This document shows positions 1,809 to 8,045 of a stretch of 9,588 nucleotides of DNA, piece after piece. Both the position numbers and the translations under genes were made by a program. Location of the stretch: positions 1-9,588 of the forward strand of contig JAFGNI010000391.1 in the NCBI GenBank assembly GCA_016927095.1, read 5' to 3'. The notes below the pieces were generated by a model. The model saw only the letters and a program-made list of their open reading frames with translations, searched no databases and was not told the DNA's origin. This DNA comes from Anaerolineae bacterium. Its GTDB lineage: Bacteria; Chloroflexota; Anaerolineae; B4-G1; SLSP01. Positions within the stretch are counted from its first letter, which is position 1, and the number at the start of each line of letters is the position of its first letter.

Positions 1809-3287
1809 TCAGTCTATATCTTGCAGCCGCCCTCGCAGTAGATCCAGCACCACCGGCGGCTTCGCGCGACCACGCGTCTCGCGCATCACTTGTCCCATGA
1901 ACCACTGGAGCAAGTTCTCTTTGCCCTCGAGATAGCTCTGGACCAGGTCGGGGTGCTCGGCGAGAACCTTGTCCACGATCTGGGCGAGCTGATCGGCGTC
2001 CGAGATCTGCACTAAGCCCTTCTCTTTGACGATGATGTCGGGCGCCTTGCCGGTCTCGAACATCGTGCCGAGGACATCCTTGGCGCTGTTCTGGTTGATC
2101 GTTCCCTTCTCGACTAAGCTGACCAGCTCTGCCAGAGCCTCAGGCGTCACCTTCACGCCCTCAATGCCAATGCCCTCCCGGTTCATCAAATAGGACAACT
2201 CCCCCACCACCCACTTGCTCACCGCCTCAGGATCGCCCCCGTGCGCATCGACCGCCGCCTCAAAGTAGTCCGCCAGCGCCCGTTCGCCCACCAGAATCCG
2301 CGCGTCGTTCTCCGAGAGTCCCATCTCTGTCACGAAACGCTCGTGCTTCGTCGCGGGAAGCTCCGGCAGCTCTGCTCGCACCTCCTCGACCCAAGCGCTG
2401 TCGATGTACAGCGGCGGTAAGTCGGGCTCCGGGAAGTAGCGGTAGTCGTGGGCCTGTTCCTTGCTCCGCTGCGAAAAGGTCACGCCCCTCACATCGTCCC
2501 ATCCCAACGTCTCCTGCACGATCTCGCCACCCGACTCCAGGACCGCGATCTGTCGCTCGATCTCGTACTCAGCAGCCCGTGTGAGCGCCCGGAAGCTGTT
2601 CAGGTTCTTGATCTCGGTCCGCGTGCCCAGCACCTCGCTGCCCGCGGGCCGGACGGAGACGTTGGCCTCGAAGCGTAACACACCCTTCTCCATATCGCCG
2701 GAGTTGACGCCTAGATAGCGCAGGATCTCCCGGATCGCAGCGGCATAGGCGTGGGCCGCCGCCACCGAATGCATATCGGGCTCCGACACAATCTCCAAGA
2801 GCGGCACCCCAGAGCGGTTGAAGTCGATGAGCGTGTACGCGTCCGTCTCGGGCCAGGCCGCCGGGTAGTGGTCGCTCTTGGCCGTGTCCTCCTCCATATG
2901 CGCACGGGTGATCCCCACCCGGACCGTCTCGCCCTCGTCGGTCATGACGTCGATCCAGCCGTTCGTGGCCAGCGGGTGGTCGTACTGGGAGATCTGATAC
3001 CCCTTCGGCAGGTCCGGGTAGAAGTAATTCTTACGCGCGAAGCTCGTGAATTCATTGATCTGGCAGTTCAACGCCAACCCCACCATCATCGCCTGCTCCA
3101 CAGCGCGCCTATTGACCACGGGCATCGCCCCGGGCAGCCCGGTGCAGACCGGGCAGATCGCCGTGTTGGGCTCCGCCACCGTCGTATCCACCACCGGACA
3201 CCCGCAGAACATCTTGGACGCCGTCCGCAGCTCCGCGTGGATCTCCATCCCAATTACGGGTTCGTAGTCGTCTCTGTGCATTGTCAT
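1809..3287 (-). CDS. gatB: Asp-tRNA(Asn)/Glu-tRNA(Gln) amidotransferase subunit B
   Basis: GatB (492 aa, near the usual 475-490) phosphorylates the misacylated Asp-tRNA(Asn) or Glu-tRNA(Gln) and transfers ammonia delivered from GatA. The zinc-site cysteines are present as CxC (28, 30) and CxxC (45, 48). The family signatures NYFYPDLPKGYQISQYDHPL and DYRYFPEPDLPPL follow. The C-terminal tail domain that contacts the tRNA ends in the usual QWFMGQVMRETRGRAKP region. The ATG at 3287 has GGAGGA four bases upstream; a second ATG at 3281 (protein two residues shorter) would be 10 nt from it, so the start is slightly uncertain. It is the last gene of aspS-gatC-gatA-gatB, 133 nt behind gatA. That gap is filled by a G-rich heptamer array and an inverted arm next to the ribosome binding site. 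It ends in TGA. Confidence 0.97.
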   Translation of the reverse strand: MTMHRDDYEPVIGMEIHAELRTASKMFCGCPVVDTTVAEPNTAICPVCTGLPGAMPVVNRRAVEQAMMVGLALNCQINEFTSFARKNYFYPDLPKGYQISQYDHPLATNGWIDVMTDEGETVRVGITRAHMEEDTAKSDHYPAAWPETDAYTLIDFNRSGVPLLEIVSEPDMHSVAAAHAYAAAIREILRYLGVNSGDMEKGVLRFEANVSVRPAGSEVLGTRTEIKNLNSFRALTRAAEYEIERQIAVLESGGEIVQETLGWDDVRGVTFSQRSKEQAHDYRYFPEPDLPPLYIDSAWVEEVRAELPELPATKHERFVTEMGLSENDARILVGERALADYFEAAVDAHGGDPEAVSKWVVGELSYLMNREGIGIEGVKVTPEALAELVSLVEKGTINQNSAKDVLGTMFETGKAPDIIVKEKGLVQISDADQLAQIVDKVLAEHPDLVQSYLEGKENLLQWFMGQVMRETRGRAKPPVVLDLLRGRLQDID

Positions 3288-3305: not shown

Positions 3306-3441
3306 GGGGAAAAGGGATAGGGGATAAGGGCTCGCATGTCAGGGCGATGCGCCTGTCCGGCCCAGATCCCGTAGCCCGTGTCCCCTGTTCCCTGTTCCCT
3401 GTTCCCTGTTCCCTTTTCCCCTATCCCTTTTCCCCTATCCC
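3306..3441 (-). repeat. Heptamer G-rich repeat element between gatA and gatB
   Basis: In the direction of transcription, 3441-3381 is an array in strict 7-nt register: GGGATAG, GGGAAAA, GGGATAG, GGGAAAA, four copies of GGGAACA, then GGGGACA. At least 11 runs of three or more G are separated by 3-4 nt, a strong G-quadruplex pattern in the mRNA. A perfect 18-nt inverted copy (GGGGAAAAGGGATAGGGG at 3306-3323 on +, complement at 3418-3435) closes the element next to the gatB ribosome binding site, 94 nt away. The array overlaps the last codons and the TAG of gatA. Short tandem heptamer repeats (STRR, for example CCCCRAT) are known from cyanobacteria; the link to those is by form only. Confidence 0.85.
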
Positions 3442-4893
3442 AGGCGTAGCCTCATGCCACGCCGTCGCAGCCTGGTAAGCCTCGCCGATGCGGAAGACGA
3501 TCGGTTCGCCAAGGGGCGGGCCGATGATCTGCATCCCCACCGGTAGCCCGCCGGAGAAACCACAGGGCACCGCCAGCGAGCAGACGCCACCGGGATTCGC
3601 GGCAACCACGTGGATGTCGGACAAGTACATCTGGAGCGGATCGCCGATCTTCTCGCCAAGCCTGAAAGCCGTCGTCGGGGAGACCGGCGCCACAAGGGCA
3701 TCGACGTGCGCGAACGCGCGCTCAAAGTCCTGGCGCAGCAGCGTCCGCACCCTCTGCGCCCTGAGGTAGTAGGCGTCGTAGTAGCCCGAGGAGAGAGCAT
3801 AGGTACCCAGCATGATGCGCCGCTTGACCTCGTCGCCGAAGCCGGCCTCGCGCGTCTTCAGATAGCGCTCAATCACGTCCACGCCGCCAGGCGGCGTGCT
3901 CAGACCAAAGCGGATGCCGTCAAAGCGGGCCAGGTTCGAGCTGGCCTCAGCAGTCAGGATAAGATAGTAGATGGAAATCGCGTAGTCGGTGTGGGGCAGC
4001 GACACCGGTTCCACCTGGGCGCCCAGCCCGGCAAGCTGGTCGATCGCTGCGCGCACCGTTGCGTCCACCCCGGGGTCGATGCCCCTGGCAAAGTACTCCT
4101 CCGGGACACCCAACCTGATCCCTGTGAGATCCCGGTCAAACCCCGCCGTGTAGTCGGGCACCGGAGCCGCCAGCGACGTGCTGTCGTAGGGATCGCGTCC
4201 GGCAATGGCCTGCATAACCAGCGCGGCATCCCGCACTGTGTGCGCGAAGGGTCCGATGCTGTCGAAGGACGAGACCAGCGCAATGAGCCCATAGCGCGAG
4301 ACACGACCATAGGTCGGCTTCAGCCCGGTTACCCCGCAGAAACCTGCAGGCATCCGCACGGAGCCGCCGGTGTCCTCGCCCAGGGCAAACAGACCCATCT
4401 GAGCCGCCACTGCCGCAGCCGACCCGCCGCTCGAACCGCCGGGCACAGCGTTCAAGTCCCAGGGGTTGCGGGTATCAAAGAACGCCGAGTTCTCGCAGGA
4501 GGAGCCCATCCCGAACTCATCCATGTTTTGCTTCCCCACCAAGACAGCCCCGGCGCCACGCAGCCGCGCAATGACAGTAGCGTCGTAGGGCGGCACGTAG
4601 TTCTCCAGGATCTTGGAAGAGCACGTCGTCCGCACCCCCGTGGTCGAGAGACAGTCTTTGACGCCGTAGGGAATCCCGGTTAGGGGAGTGACATTCCCCC
4701 CCGATTGCCGTCGTGCATCCGCAGCAGCCGCTTCCGTTAGCGCCTCCTCCGCGCAGACGGTGACATAGGCCTTCACCTCCGGATCGACCGCAGCGATTCG
4801 ATCCAACACAGCCCGCGTCAACTCTACGGACGTGATCTCACCGGCTGTCAGCAAGGCGTGGGCCTCTTCGATCGTGAGTGTATGGAGTGTCAT
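3421..4893 (-). CDS. gatA: Asp-tRNA(Asn)/Glu-tRNA(Gln) amidotransferase subunit A
   Basis: GatA (490 aa, normal length) is the amidase-signature subunit that releases ammonia from glutamine and channels it to GatB. The Ser-cisSer-Lys catalytic set is intact: Lys79 in GVKD, Ser154 in PGGSSGGS and the nucleophile Ser178 in DTGGSVR, the same numbers as in the structurally known Staphylococcus aureus GatA. The Gly-rich amidase signature (about 151-190) is complete. The ATG at 4893 is 9 nt after the gatC stop with a G-rich (GGGGGCGG) but weak binding site, which suggests translational coupling to gatC. The last residues GIGEKG and the TAG stop are read from the heptamer repeat. The conserved family sequence ends just before, at AYQAATAWHEATP. 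Confidence 0.97.
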   Translation of the reverse strand: MTLHTLTIEEAHALLTAGEITSVELTRAVLDRIAAVDPEVKAYVTVCAEEALTEAAAADARRQSGGNVTPLTGIPYGVKDCLSTTGVRTTCSSKILENYVPPYDATVIARLRGAGAVLVGKQNMDEFGMGSSCENSAFFDTRNPWDLNAVPGGSSGGSAAAVAAQMGLFALGEDTGGSVRMPAGFCGVTGLKPTYGRVSRYGLIALVSSFDSIGPFAHTVRDAALVMQAIAGRDPYDSTSLAAPVPDYTAGFDRDLTGIRLGVPEEYFARGIDPGVDATVRAAIDQLAGLGAQVEPVSLPHTDYAISIYYLILTAEASSNLARFDGIRFGLSTPPGGVDVIERYLKTREAGFGDEVKRRIMLGTYALSSGYYDAYYLRAQRVRTLLRQDFERAFAHVDALVAPVSPTTAFRLGEKIGDPLQMYLSDIHVVAANPGGVCSLAVPCGFSGGLPVGMQIIGPPLGEPIVFRIGEAYQAATAWHEATPGIGEKG

Positions 4894-4902
4894 CGCCGCC
4901 CC

Positions 4903-5226
4903 CTAACCCTCATCCTCATCTGGAACGTCCAGGACCACGGGCACTTTGACATAGCCGCCGGACTGCTGTGGCGCGTTGGCAAGGAAGACCTCCCGGGGCA
5001 GCGTCGGACGCACCTCATCCTCGCGTAGCGCCGCCCGCCCCATCTGCGGCTGCCGGTAGGGAGGCACGTCTGTCACATCGACCTCCGCCAGCCGGTCGAA
5101 ATAGTCCACAATCGCGCTCAACTGCTCGCTGAACCTCTCCACCTCATCCTCAGTCAGCGCCAGCCTGATCAAAAACCCGATATGGCGAACTTGGTCGCGG
5201 TCAATGAGTCGTGTGTTCTCAGTCAT
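4903..5226 (-). CDS. gatC: Asp-tRNA(Asn)/Glu-tRNA(Gln) amidotransferase subunit C
   Basis: GatC (107 aa, usual 90-105) is the small subunit that wraps around and stabilises the GatA-GatB interface. Family features visible are the N-terminal DRDQVRHIGFLIRLALTEDE helix, the EQLSAIVDYFDRLAEVDVTD segment, and the C-terminal LPREVFLANAPQQSGGYVKV motif. The ATG at 5226 has a perfect AGGAGG about 5 nt upstream. It is 187 nt behind aspS, and that gap holds the second heptamer element. It ends in TAG, 9 nt before gatA. Confidence 0.96.
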   Translation of the reverse strand: MTENTRLIDRDQVRHIGFLIRLALTEDEVERFSEQLSAIVDYFDRLAEVDVTDVPPYRQPQMGRAALREDEVRPTLPREVFLANAPQQSGGYVKVPVVLDVPDEDEG

Positions 5227-5244: not shown

Positions 5245-5435
5245 GGGAAAAGGGATAAGGGATAAGGACAGAGAACAAAGCAGCCAGTTGCGTCTCCACG
5301 CGCCACCTTTGCCCACTCGCCCTGTGTCACGATGCCGTCTCCCTTATCCTTTTTCCCTTATCCCCTATCCCCTATCCCCTATCCCCTATCCCTCGTCCCC
5401 TGTCCCCTGTCCCCTATCCCTTGTCCCTTATCCCC
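5245..5435 (-). repeat. Heptamer G-rich repeat element between aspS and gatC
   Basis: Read in the direction of transcription, 5435-5341 is an array of 7-nt units, including GGGATAG, GGGACAG and a central run of four GGGGATA. More than a dozen runs of three or four G are separated mostly by 3-4 nt. The inverted arm GGGAAAAGGGATAAGGG (+, 5245-5261) matches the complement at 5341-5357 in 16 of 17 positions and lies just upstream of the gatC AGGAGG. The arrangement is the same as in the gatA-gatB gap, but the unique sequence between the arms differs. The last codons and TAG of aspS are inside the array. Confidence 0.85.
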
Positions 5436-7198
5436 TTCGTCGCCAGACAAACGTGCGCCTCGCGAAGCTGCTCAGGCGCCACCGGTGCCGGTGCCCGCAT
5501 CAGCAGGTCCGTTGCCTGCCGTGTCTTCGGGAACGCGATCACATCCCGTATCGTATCAGTGCCCGCGAGGATTGCGACCAGACGATCGATACCAATGGCA
5601 ATGCCGCCGTGGGGCGGCGCACCGTGCTCGAGGGCGCCCAGCAGATGCCCAAAGCCGGTCTCCGCCTCCTCGGGTGTGTAGCCCAGCAGCGAGAGGATCC
5701 GCGCCTGCAGGTCGCGCTCGTGGATGCGCATGGAGCCCGAGCCCAGCTCCCAGCCGTTGCAGACCAGGTCGTAGCAGTCAGCGCGCACGGCGCCAGGATC
5801 GGTTTCTAGGATTCCGATATCGCCCGCCTTGGGCCGGGTGAAAGGGTGATGTTCCGCGTCCCAATGCTGTCCCTCGTGATCCCACTTGAAGAGTGGGAAG
5901 TCCGTCACCCACGCAAAGGCCAGCTTGTCCGGGTCGGCGAGTCCCAGCCGCTGACCCAGCTCACGGCGCAGGCCGTCCAGCGCGCCGTGCACCACACCGG
6001 TCTCCCCCGCGACAAGCATCAGGATGTCGCCCGGCTGCGCAGCAAAGGCACGGATCACCATCTGCTGTTCGGTTTCGGTAAGGTGGCGCGCCACCGGGGC
6101 CTCCAGTGCCCCAACGCCCACCCGGAACCAGATCACGCCGGTAGCACCTAGCTCGCGGCTCAGCGTCTGCAGCGTCTCCAGCTCGGCCTCGGTTGCATCA
6201 CCGTAACCTGGCACACGGAATCCCTTCACGATCCCGCCCTCGCTCGCGGCTTGTCGGAAGATCCGGACATCCGTTGCACCCAAAAGCTCCGTGCAATCGA
6301 CAAAAGCCATGTCCCAACGTAGATCGGGTTTATCGGTACCGTAGCGTGCCATCGCCTGATCGTACGTCAGCCGCAGGAAGGGCGTCACGATCGCCCGGTC
6401 CGGCTGCACCTGCTTGATAACGTCCGCGATCAAGGCCTCCGTCAAGGCCAGGACATCCGCCTGCGCCACGAAGCTCATCTCCAGGTCCAGTTGCGTGAAC
6501 TCCGGCTGGCGGTCGGCGCGAAGGTCCTCATCGCGAAAGCAGCGTGCCACCTGGTAGTAGCGATCGACACCCGCCACCATCAGCAACTGCTTCATCATCT
6601 GCGGCGATTGCGGGAGCGCATAGAACTCGCCCGGGTGGACCCGGCTGGGCACCAGATAGTCGCGCGCCCCTTCAGGTGTGCTCCGCGTCAACACGGGTGT
6701 CTCCACCTCCAGGAAGCCCTCCGCATCCAAGCCATCGCGCAGTCCCTTGACCACGGTGTGTCGCAGCTGCAGGTTACGCTGCAGCCCGGCGCGCCGCAGG
6801 TCGAGATAACGATACGCTAGCCGCACGCTCTCGTCCACCTGGTCCGCATCCTCTACCGGGAAGGGCAAAGGCGTTACCGTGTTGAGGAGGGTGATGTCCT
6901 CCGCTGCCAGCTCGACGGCACCGGTCGCCAGCGCAGGATTCTCTGTGCCCGCAGGGCGGGCGCGGACTGTGCCCGCGACCGACACCACATACTCATCTCG
7001 CAGGCCGCCCGCTACCGCGTGAGCCGCTTCCGAGATGGCAGGATCGGCGACCACCTGCAGGACCCCCTCGCGGTCCCAGAGATCCAAGAAGACCACGTGG
7101 CCATGGTCCCGGTGGCCCCGGACCCAGCCCTGAACCACGACGGACTGCCCCACGTCTTCGGCTGAAACCTTGCCGCAGCGATGCGTTCGCTTCTCCAT
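5414..7198 (-). CDS. aspS: Aspartate--tRNA ligase, probably non-discriminating
   Basis: AspRS charges tRNA with aspartate in the cytoplasm. I place the start at ATG 7198 (594 aa): GGGAGG lies 6 nt upstream, whereas the longer frame from 7240 begins inside a terminator hairpin. The order is an N-terminal OB-fold anticodon-binding domain (about 1-110), class II motif 1 region ([20 protein letters not shown], about 162-181), motif 2 ([14 protein letters not shown] at 221-234), the bacterial GAD insertion (about 290-400) and motif 3 ([10 protein letters not shown], 532-541). In the OB fold the sequence RDHG gives His32 where E. coli (discriminating) has Leu, and RPAG gives Gly84. From the Pseudomonas aeruginosa work I recall these as marks of non-discriminating AspRS, which also charges tRNA(Asn). 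The operon with gatCAB agrees. The last six residues GIRDKG and the stop come from the heptamer array. Confidence 0.96.
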
Positions 7199-7210: not shown

Positions 7211-7230
7211 CAAATTCCTCGCCGACAATG

Positions 7231-7264
7231 AAAAAGCCACGGGCTTGGTCGCGTGCCCGTGGCT
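7231..7264 (-). terminator. Attenuator terminator 2 (arms D:E)
   Basis: On the minus strand AGCCACGGGC (7264-7255) and GCCCGTGGCT (7244-7235) form a perfect 10-bp G+C-rich stem with a 10-nt loop, followed by TTTTT ending at 7231. This is an intrinsic-terminator pattern pointing into aspS from its own leader. The T-run exists only on this strand. Confidence 0.8.
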
Positions 7265-7282
7265 GTGGCTGGGTGTGAATGC

Positions 7283-7315
7283 AAAAAGCCACGGGCACTG
7301 CGTGCGCCCGTGGCT
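7283..7315 (-). terminator. Attenuator terminator 1 (arms B:C)
   Basis: On the minus strand AGCCACGGGC (7315-7306) and GCCCGTGGCT (7296-7287) form a perfect 10-bp stem with a 9-nt loop that can be extended by extra GC pairs. TTTTT ends at 7283. The stem sequence is identical to that of terminator 2, 23 nt downstream. Confidence 0.8.
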
Positions 7316-7338
7316 TGGATGACCGGATCAGAAGTGTG

Positions 7339-7431
7339 CTAGGATCGATCCTCCCACAGGCGCACGCGGGGATTATCGTTCTGCTGATTCTGGTTCTGGT
7401 TCGAGCTCAACATCCGAATCGCGAACAACAT
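7339..7431 (-). CDS. Asn/Gln-rich leader peptide (30 aa) of the aspS-gatCAB operon
   Basis: A 31-codon frame runs from ATG 7431 to TAG 7341-7339. AGGAG (7447-7443) lies 11 nt upstream. Residues 11-20 are NQNQNQQNDN: five Asn, four Gln and one Asp without interruption, preceded by an ordinary head (MLFAIRMLSS) and followed by PRVRLWEDRS. These are exactly the amino acids loaded through AspRS and GatCAB, the products of the operon downstream. The frame sits between a perfect-consensus promoter and two terminator-like hairpins, the classic place for an attenuation leader peptide. An in-frame ATG at 7470 would give 43 residues, but its AGGGG is only 1 nt away, so 7431 is preferred. The peptide itself probably has no function beyond being translated. 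No homolog is known to me. Confidence 0.8.
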   Translation of the reverse strand: MLFAIRMLSSNQNQNQQNDNPRVRLWEDRS

Positions 7432-7512
7432 CGCTTGCGTGTCTCCTGTGAGAGCGTGGGGGCGGAACATGCCCCTGAGGCCCAATGCGCCCCTATCGAT
7501 CAAGTTGTGACC

Positions 7513-7541
7513 ATTATAGGGGAGAGGGCCGGAGATGTCAA
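7513..7541 (-). promoter_or_regulatory. Consensus sigma-70 promoter of the aspS-gatCAB operon
   Basis: On the minus strand TTGACA (7541-7536), exactly 17 nt, then TATAAT (7518-7513): all twelve consensus bases match. The start would be near 7506, giving a leader of about 308 nt before aspS. Such a strong, apparently unregulated promoter fits control after initiation, by the attenuator. It lies 40 nt after the stop of the DUF2283 gene. Confidence 0.92.
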
Positions 7542-7581: not shown

Positions 7582-7809
7582 TCACGACTCGGTCGTGGCC
7601 AATGCGACCGTCTGCAGCGGAAGGGACTCAGCCTCCAGGCGAGAGAGGTCCACGACGCGGCTTGCGTGGTCGATGTCGATACCAACAATGTTGCCCTCGG
7701 CGTCAAAATCGAGTACGACGCCAGGGGCGACCTCTTCGGAGTCGACGCCGGCGCGCTCAGCCAGGTCGATGTAGAGCGAGTCCGTCTCTGGATAGTAGTG
7801 GAACTTCAT
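7582..7809 (-). CDS. DUF2283 family small protein, likely antitoxin partner
   Basis: The 75-residue protein shows the DUF2283 pattern: MKFHYYPETDSLYIDLAER, then EEVAPGVVLDFDAEGNIVGIDIDHASR. The core is a small beta-sheet with a D-x-D-x-x-G-x-x-V-G-I-x-I turn. The ATG at 7809 overlaps the stop of the preceding gene by ATGA, and AGGAGA lies 7 nt upstream, so the two are translationally coupled. DUF2283 genes are often found next to small DUF4258-like or other toxin-type genes, and an antitoxin role has been proposed for the family. Function here is inferred from context only. Confidence 0.85.
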   Translation of the reverse strand: MKFHYYPETDSLYIDLAERAGVDSEEVAPGVVLDFDAEGNIVGIDIDHASRVVDLSRLEAESLPLQTVALATTES

Positions 7810-8045
7810 TGCGGATCTCCTTTGAACCGTCGATCCGGGAACGCATTGTGGATCGTCTCACCATCAGACAGCGTGATTACCCTCAGATACTTGTCCAGCT
7901 CATCGATGAAGACCCAGTATCGAAGGCGACCATCAGGCTGTGCCTCACAGTGAACGTACTCCCGAAGCGCGCGTTCACACCATTCCCGTTTGAGATAGCT
8001 CCGTTTTCTGAGTACTTGCTCCTCGAAGTAGCGAGTCGTCTTCAC
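7806..8045 (-). CDS. Small uncharacterised protein, possible toxin partner of DUF2283
   Basis: The start is GTG at 8045, chosen because AGGAG lies 8 nt upstream; the protein has 79 residues. It begins MKTTRYFEEQVLRKRSYLKREWCERAL and ends with RLRYWVFIDELDKYLRVITLSDGETIHNAFPDR. The second half reads as three beta strands with a conserved-looking TIHNAFPDR end, of the kind seen in small RelE/DUF4258-like proteins. I cannot assign a family with certainty. A basic N-terminal half and a four-base ATGA overlap with a DUF2283 gene suggest a toxin-antitoxin or similar two-protein module. A toxin usually precedes its partner less often than it follows, so the roles could be reversed. Confidence 0.75.
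   Translation of the reverse strand: MKTTRYFEEQVLRKRSYLKREWCERALREYVHCEAQPDGRLRYWVFIDELDKYLRVITLSDGETIHNAFPDRRFKGDPQ

Follow-up and report, generated by a model that had tools for sequence, protein, structure and literature searches.

The stretch of DNA analysed here, 9,588 nucleotides long and called the window below, carries on its minus strand an aspS-gatCAB operon preceded by a short open reading frame in which ten consecutive codons specify Asn, Gln or Asp. The locus raises the question of whether this frame is a leader peptide through which the translating ribosome reports on charged tRNA, and if so for which amino acid. A preliminary description, made from the letters of the window, had proposed by analogy with the trp, his and pheST leaders a sensor of both tRNA(Asn) and tRNA(Gln), in an organism lacking asnS and glnS.

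Layout of the leader and of the operon

The promoter, the leader and the four genes behind it are arranged as follows.

7513..7541, minus strand: promoter, TTGACA-17-TATAAT, matching 12 of 12 consensus positions
7339..7431, minus strand: leader peptide ORF of 30 aa, MLFAIRMLSSNQNQNQQNDNPRVRLWEDRS, from its translation, with homologous ORFs in six relatives and before asnA in two further genomes, G039 and G038
7372..7401, minus strand: regulatory codon run, AAC CAG AAC CAG AAT CAG CAG AAC GAT AAT = NQNQNQQNDN, codons 11-20 of the leader
5414..7198, minus strand: aspS, a bacterial-type aspartate--tRNA ligase (TIGR00459, 702.8 bits, cut-off 373.85) with the non-discriminating-like residues H32 and G84, placed by alignment
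4903..5226, minus strand: gatC (TIGR00135, over cut-off)
3421..4893, minus strand: gatA (TIGR00132, over cut-off)
1809..3287, minus strand: gatB (TIGR00133, over cut-off)

The ORF, its ten Asn/Gln/Asp codons ahead of aspS-gatCAB and the perfect promoter were all confirmed as first described. The leader's Shine-Dalgarno sequence, AGGAG (7443-7447), lies 11 nt 5' of the leader ATG, the leader stop codon ends at 7339, 22 nt 5' of the first of two terminators, and aspS starts with the ATG at 7198. A near-consensus promoter hexamer pair was found 5' of all eight leaders checked. In the five proteins of the window (2070 residues) Asn makes up 1.6%, Gln 3.4% and Asp 7.3%, and with this composition a ten-residue stretch of Asn, Gln and Asp has a probability of about 9e-10 at a given position. 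The early judgement that such a run is unlikely by chance is borne out by this figure and by an Asn run kept in six aspS and two asnA relatives; chance is better excluded by the conservation of the run than by the composition probability.

Upstream of the operon the window carries a lycopene-cyclase gene (PF05834, 8103-9266), and pieces of a similar cyclase gene adjoin the leader in the relatives G001 and G045. Between the cyclase gene and the promoter lie two small genes (7582-8045), one of them a DUF2283 gene (PF10049) and its neighbour without a Pfam match. A second promoter-like pair, TTGACA-17-TATATT (11/12), is present downstream of gatB on the minus strand (1725-1697).

Conservation of the leader and of its asparagine codons

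A scan across named genomes yielded L001, a distant locus (46%), and L002 (70%; genome G001), which lies in a Thermoflexales bacterium MAG; the window itself likely comes from a relative of Thermoflexales. Across the order of that MAG (48 genomes searched), aspS of the window type was found in six genomes, G001, G026, G043, G044, G045 and G046, with 65-77% identity over the matched pieces. The order aspS-gatC-gatA-gatB is the same in these relatives wherever it can be read, the operons of G001 and G044 reaching contig ends. Inspecting the regions upstream of aspS or gatC in relatives, as had been proposed, revealed a short frame with an Asn run before the window-type aspS in all six. From first to last Asn these runs read NQNQQNNN, NQNNN, NRNQNGN, NQQQNNN, NHNDNN and NNQNDN, and when the seven aspS leaders are aligned, the run differs in length solely by multiples of 3 nt, which fits a coding sequence.

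An RNA model was built from the seven aspS leaders, in which the downstream gene plays no part, and was searched against overlapping samples of 396 genomes of the class, 400 of the phylum and 40 of the order (the last without G048). Genomes with any match numbered 24/396, 3/400 and 7/40, respectively, those of the phylum sample being G001 and two genomes with weak matches. Beyond the six known loci, the model finds G039 (62.9 bits) and G038 (38.9 bits), and both of these leaders precede asnA, aspartate--ammonia ligase (TIGR00669, 371 and 413 bits). The two asnA leaders (..TNNNHNPRARLWEGDS with the run NNNHN in G039, ..MNNSNSNLNPSCACGSIGDVC with the run NNSNSNLN in G038) have no Gln in the run. 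In G038 the letters corresponding to region 2 of the leader RNA, GCGCCTGTGGG, are read in a frame other than the window's and the Asn run is still present, suggesting that region 2 is conserved as RNA and the run as peptide.

The composition of the runs over the nine leaders (the window, the six relatives, G039 and G038) indicates which residue is kept. Asn codons number 4-5 per run in 9/9 leaders, Gln codons number 4, 3, 3, 1, 0, 1, 1, 0 and 0, and Asp codons 0-1. Because every run keeps 4-5 Asn codons while Gln ranges between 4 and none and Asp between 1 and none, the conserved signal of the codon run is, by this comparison of sequences, Asn. The placement of one leader before two different routes of Asn supply, aspS-gatCAB and asnA, likewise points to asparagine as the signal.

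These counts bear directly on the proposal that the leader senses both Asn-tRNA and Gln-tRNA, GatCAB making both in an organism without asnS and glnS. The four Gln codons of the window run, and three each in G044 and G001, are what would be expected of such a dual sensor; however, the run has 0 or 1 Gln in six of the nine leaders, the two asnA leaders have none, and asnS and glnS are both found over their family cut-offs in 6/6 relatives with the operon. The Asn half of the proposed sensor is thus supported and the Gln half is not, the predicted absence of asnS and glnS finds no support in the relatives, and we consider dual sensing unlikely. Sensing of Asn-tRNA is the reading that we follow below.

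Alternative pairings and the position of the ribosome

Besides the ORF, the leader RNA contains segments that can pair in mutually exclusive ways.

7437..7454, minus strand: region 1, CTCTCACAGGAGACACGC, holding the leader Shine-Dalgarno sequence; pairs with region 2 (anti-antiterminator; pair counts)
7351..7367, minus strand: region 2, within the 3' codons of the leader ORF; partner of either region 1 or region 3, the latter pairing being the antiterminator (pair counts)
7300..7316, minus strand: region 3, the 5' arm and loop side of terminator 1
7282..7316, minus strand: terminator 1 (3:4), AAGCCACGGGC / GCCCGTGGCTT and a T run (sequence and pair counts)
7230..7264, minus strand: terminator 2 (5:6), its arms identical in sequence to those of terminator 1

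The features of a trp-type attenuator that can be read from the sequence are present, namely a leader ORF with its ribosome site, the Asn codon run and an intrinsic terminator ahead of aspS. When Asn-tRNA is lacking, the ribosome would stall in the run, keeping region 1 out and leaving region 2 free to take the 5' arm of terminator 1 (the antiterminator 2:3), with readthrough as the outcome. The 3' arm of terminator 1, thereby released, may in the window go on to disarm terminator 2, since it can pair with the 5' arm of the latter (4:5); a related second hairpin was recognised by eye in 5/6 relatives, being imperfect in G045 and absent in G044. When Asn-tRNA is ample the ribosome would run on and cover region 2, and terminator 1 would stop RNA polymerase, and when no ribosome is present the 1:2 pairing would let terminator 1 form.

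The pairings are well kept across the seven-sequence alignment on which they were counted (G039 excluded). The proportion of paired cells is 94.3% for the outer 10 bp of 1:2, 94.9% for 2:3, a helix of 14 bp, and 97.4% for terminator 1, and it falls to at most 71%, 61% and 55%, respectively, when the partner is slid by 1-3 columns. Covariation among the seven sequences is weak, with one double (compensatory) change per helix, matched in 198/500 shuffles for 1:2, 78/500 for 2:3 and 84/500 for terminator 1.

We then folded the leaders with all RNA up to 16 nt past the start of the P site blocked, advancing the A site one codon at a time. Under this scheme the antiterminator, exclusive with the terminator by pairing, is favoured at equilibrium with the ribosome at at least one Asn codon in 8/9 leaders and would thus be freed by a stall in the run, and the terminator is favoured beyond the run in 9/9. 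Where it is favoured, the antiterminator is also favoured for ribosomes short of the run, so that the run marks its end. If terminator 1 is the only one included, five leaders (G044, G043, G045, G046 and G026) switch cleanly and G001 and G039 do so partially; in the window the switch is confined to codon 18 and in G038 it is lacking. When both terminators of the window are included, 2:3 and 4:5 are favoured together with a stall at codons 11-18, leaving almost no terminator, and with the 3' arm of the terminator not yet made the antiterminator forms over the run in 9/9 leaders.

Other folds depart from the scheme. With the ribosome footprint alone blocked and region 1 free, 1:2 wins at a stall on the first Asn in 6/8 leaders (fully in the window, G001, G026 and G039, mostly in G045 and G046, and not in G044 or G043), a result that the model can accommodate only if kinetics or a following ribosome holds region 1 off. 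Without a ribosome, 1:2 and terminator 1 form in the window, G001, G046, G026 and G039; contrary to the model, the antiterminator is the preferred fold of G044 and G043, and G045 gives a mixture. A ribosome at the stop codon allows the terminator to form in 7/8 leaders, G043 keeping the antiterminator. For the whole leader of the window with the ribosome past the run, the equilibrium structure is 3:6 with 4:5 and not the two terminators, which implies that terminator 1 must act while it is being made. Taken together, the folds that go against the model mean that the mechanism needs a co-transcriptional order of events, a general assumption for attenuators.

These departures, together with the weak covariation and the fact that A-rich, low-complexity codons could come from composition, are compatible with another arrangement, a double terminator whose ORF serves merely to hold ribosomes close to RNA polymerase or to permit re-initiation, with incidental Asn codons. 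We regard this as quite improbable, since Asn accounts for 1.6% of the residues of the window's proteins but for 4-5 of the 5-10 residues of the run in every leader, AAC and AAT are mixed within the runs, and loss of the antiterminator coincides with the end of the run. On the pairing and folding models, we are fairly confident that the Asn-rich leader and its alternative hairpins form a trp-type attenuator, with the operon likely on when Asn-tRNA is scarce. The leader is real and conserved, and it most likely senses Asn-tRNA, by a mechanism proposed from analogy and computation. An attenuator of the trp or pheST kind before aspS-gatCAB, as first suggested, thus gains support from a conserved leader, terminator and antiterminator in sequence and folding.

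Related leaders, asparagine supply and known systems

No asnS locus had three Asn within eight residues upstream among 30 loci (28 with at least 300 nt upstream; the asnS of G045 and G046 excluded), and no Asn leader was seen in 10 asnB loci, one of which (L182) begins inside the gene. The 396 class genomes hold 23 near-full-length asnA matches, 22 of them over cut-off; among these, the asnA of G039 alone is preceded by such an Asn leader, and L133 has a short ORF with three Asn; G038 comes from the 40-genome search of the order, which partly overlaps the class sample. The housekeeping aspS of one clade is preceded by a different leader, with clusters of Asp and Asn (DDNDN, VDNN, DYDDN, NCNDND and others), a region 2 like GGGGCGGC and a terminator like AGCCGCCC. 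Such Asp/Asn leaders are clear by pattern in 16/39 loci examined and in 16/19 genomes of the clade (L010, L051, L021, L031, L027 and L020 are among the loci), but in folding their antiterminator wins at equilibrium in no more than 5/16, a weaker showing than that of the Asn leaders. Upstream of eight aspS copies of the Phe type, defined below, no GGGGCGGC / AGCCGCCC switch was seen; a loose filter placed a short ORF with three Asp or Asn in six residues before 2/8 of them (G046 and G029).

The weak matches of the RNA model (25-38 bits) resemble leaders of other kinds or simple terminators and were set aside as Asn leaders after reading, G038 excepted. A number of loci (L095, L098, L111, L113 and others) carry leader-like ORFs that end in ..SAPV.. 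or ..GAPV.. and that, together with a GTGCGCCTGT segment and a terminator of similar kind, precede genes named by eye as acetyltransferase-like, RsgA-like and ABC-type in the same class, and these are possibly a larger family of translation-stress attenuators. That the leader of the window is itself a general translation-stress attenuator, for example of an antibiotic response, with Asn codons acquired by drift, is highly improbable: the 25-38-bit matches share the terminator and region 2 letters and precede acetyltransferase-, RsgA- and ABC-like genes (by eye), but no Asn run was seen in these look-alikes and one is present in 9/9 leaders of aspS-gatCAB or asnA.

Control by a T-box was considered for the aspS-gatCAB locus and rejected, RF00230 having no match at gathering score in the window; the same was true of 19 related aspS, asnS and asnA loci. 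All 22 genomes searched do have a T-box match at some other place, and in 19 the match exceeds the gathering score. The initial contrast with T-boxes, held to be the usual solution in other groups, therefore stands for these loci but not for the genomes, which do possess T-boxes.

What the switch would achieve depends on the enzymes that it controls. Beside the operon AspRS, five of the six relatives possess a housekeeping one that shares 50-52% identity with the window enzyme (for G045 the window type alone is listed). The leader-linked enzymes read RDHG or RNHG (7/7) and the housekeeping enzymes of the same genomes, here the Phe type, RDFG or REFG (5/5), a position whose residue, His or Phe, we take to be a marker of AspRS specificity. 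By alignment, H32 and G84 of the window AspRS agree with the Asp/Asn ligases 4wj3 (Pseudomonas) and 5w25 (mycobacterial) and not with 6hhv. In a tree the window-type AspRSs form one clade (100/97) and the Phe-type AspRSs another, with moderate support (92/84). G027, G028 and G029 have the Phe-type AspRS, and the window-type operon was not found in them. From these residues, the leader-linked AspRS looks non-discriminating and the housekeeping copy does not. An archaeal-type non-discriminating AspRS, as in Thermus and Deinococcus, was rejected for the window, with TIGR00458 (aspS_nondisc) scoring 210.5 bits, under its cut-off of 368.4. In one further genome, an asnS-like gene (G007:C476:1791-3056; 210 bits, below cut-off) immediately precedes aspS, in the place that a leader occupies in most related genomes.

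The predicted non-discriminating AspRS together with GatCAB would make Asn from Asp on tRNA(Asn). The gatB of the operon is the sole gatB found in G001, G043, G045 and G046, G026 has a second, and in G044 it is the sole one except for a fragment on another contig, maybe its missing end. GatCAB needs the U1-A72 pair of tRNA(Asn), according to the available text of PMC4206432. A pattern search for tRNA(Asn) in 11 genomes gave matches in nine, of which eight were read, and U1-A72 is present in 8/8, including five of the six operon relatives; G046 had no pattern match. Asparagine synthetases are present too, asnA in G001, G026 and G044 and asnB (over cut-off) in G001 and G043, and since asnS and glnS occur in all six relatives as well, the amidation route is likely, by analogy, a supplement to other asparagine supply. 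The available part of PMC4206432 argues for such a role of this route in other bacteria. Amidation would thus be, in the relatives, a second route beside AsnRS, and the switch would start tRNA-dependent asparagine synthesis when it is needed.

Elongation factor Tu is held to reject Asp-tRNA(Asn). We put forward tentatively, with somewhat less than even confidence, that the leader for this reason reads the finished product: a stall would sense fully amidated Asn-tRNA(Asn) alone, and a T-box would take the mischarged intermediate as charged. If true, this would explain why a leader peptide serves the amidation route in genomes that own T-boxes, and why one module stands before both the non-discriminating AspRS-GatCAB operon and AsnA, and an Asp/Asn form of it before the housekeeping aspS of a sister clade.

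T-box control of the AspRS-GatCAB operon of Clostridium acetobutylicum was reportedly described by Saad in 2012 and 2013. That operon, redundant in its host, is under a T-box sensing tRNA(Asn), as far as the available text of PMC4052509 and PMC4206432 goes, and is by analogy the nearest functional parallel: both are transcription switches for tRNA(Asn) before a redundant amidation operon, but there a riboswitch binds the tRNA directly, whereas here, where no T-box was found, the translating ribosome would do the sensing. Leader attenuators of synthetase genes are described for trpS2 and leuS of Streptomyces in the accessible part of PMC1262725. With the trp, his, leu, pheST, trpS2 and leuS attenuators, as far as outlined there, the present leader shares regulatory codons for the operon's product, a terminator, an antiterminator overlapping the 3' end of the ORF and a helix that sequesters its upstream part. 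It differs from them in having Asn as the regulatory residue and an AspRS-GatCAB operon or asnA as target, in a region 1 that is the ribosome-binding site and not the regulatory codons, and, in the window, in two terminators with the same arms.

Dual routes to Asn-tRNA are known in Deinococcus, Thermus and Bdellovibrio, which, in the text seen of PMC4206432, likewise have AsnRS and GlnRS with GatCAB and a non-discriminating AspRS, and in Deinococcus and Thermus a second AspRS. The second AspRS is an archaeal acquisition in Deinococcus and Thermus, for which that text describes no leader attenuator, whereas here it is of bacterial type with a leader of its own. A "tRNA synthetase leader" predicted before the aspS of Shewanella (PMC2659441) is also a 5'-UTR structural element with a terminator, but, unlike here, the portion of that paper available describes no leader peptide or Asn codons for it. 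No asparagine leader peptide for aspS, gatCAB or asnA was recognised in the part of the open-licence literature covered, a body of text that leaves subscription journals mostly outside.

In a group that has received little study, the leader may thus be a ribosome-based counterpart of the Clostridium T-box for tRNA(Asn), and it links two different asparagine-supply operons through one element. On the sequences compared, the leader and the His/Phe split are suggested markers for which of two duplicated AspRSs is non-discriminating. The finding also bears on why cells keep AsnRS together with amidation: the second route would be inducible and triggered by starvation.
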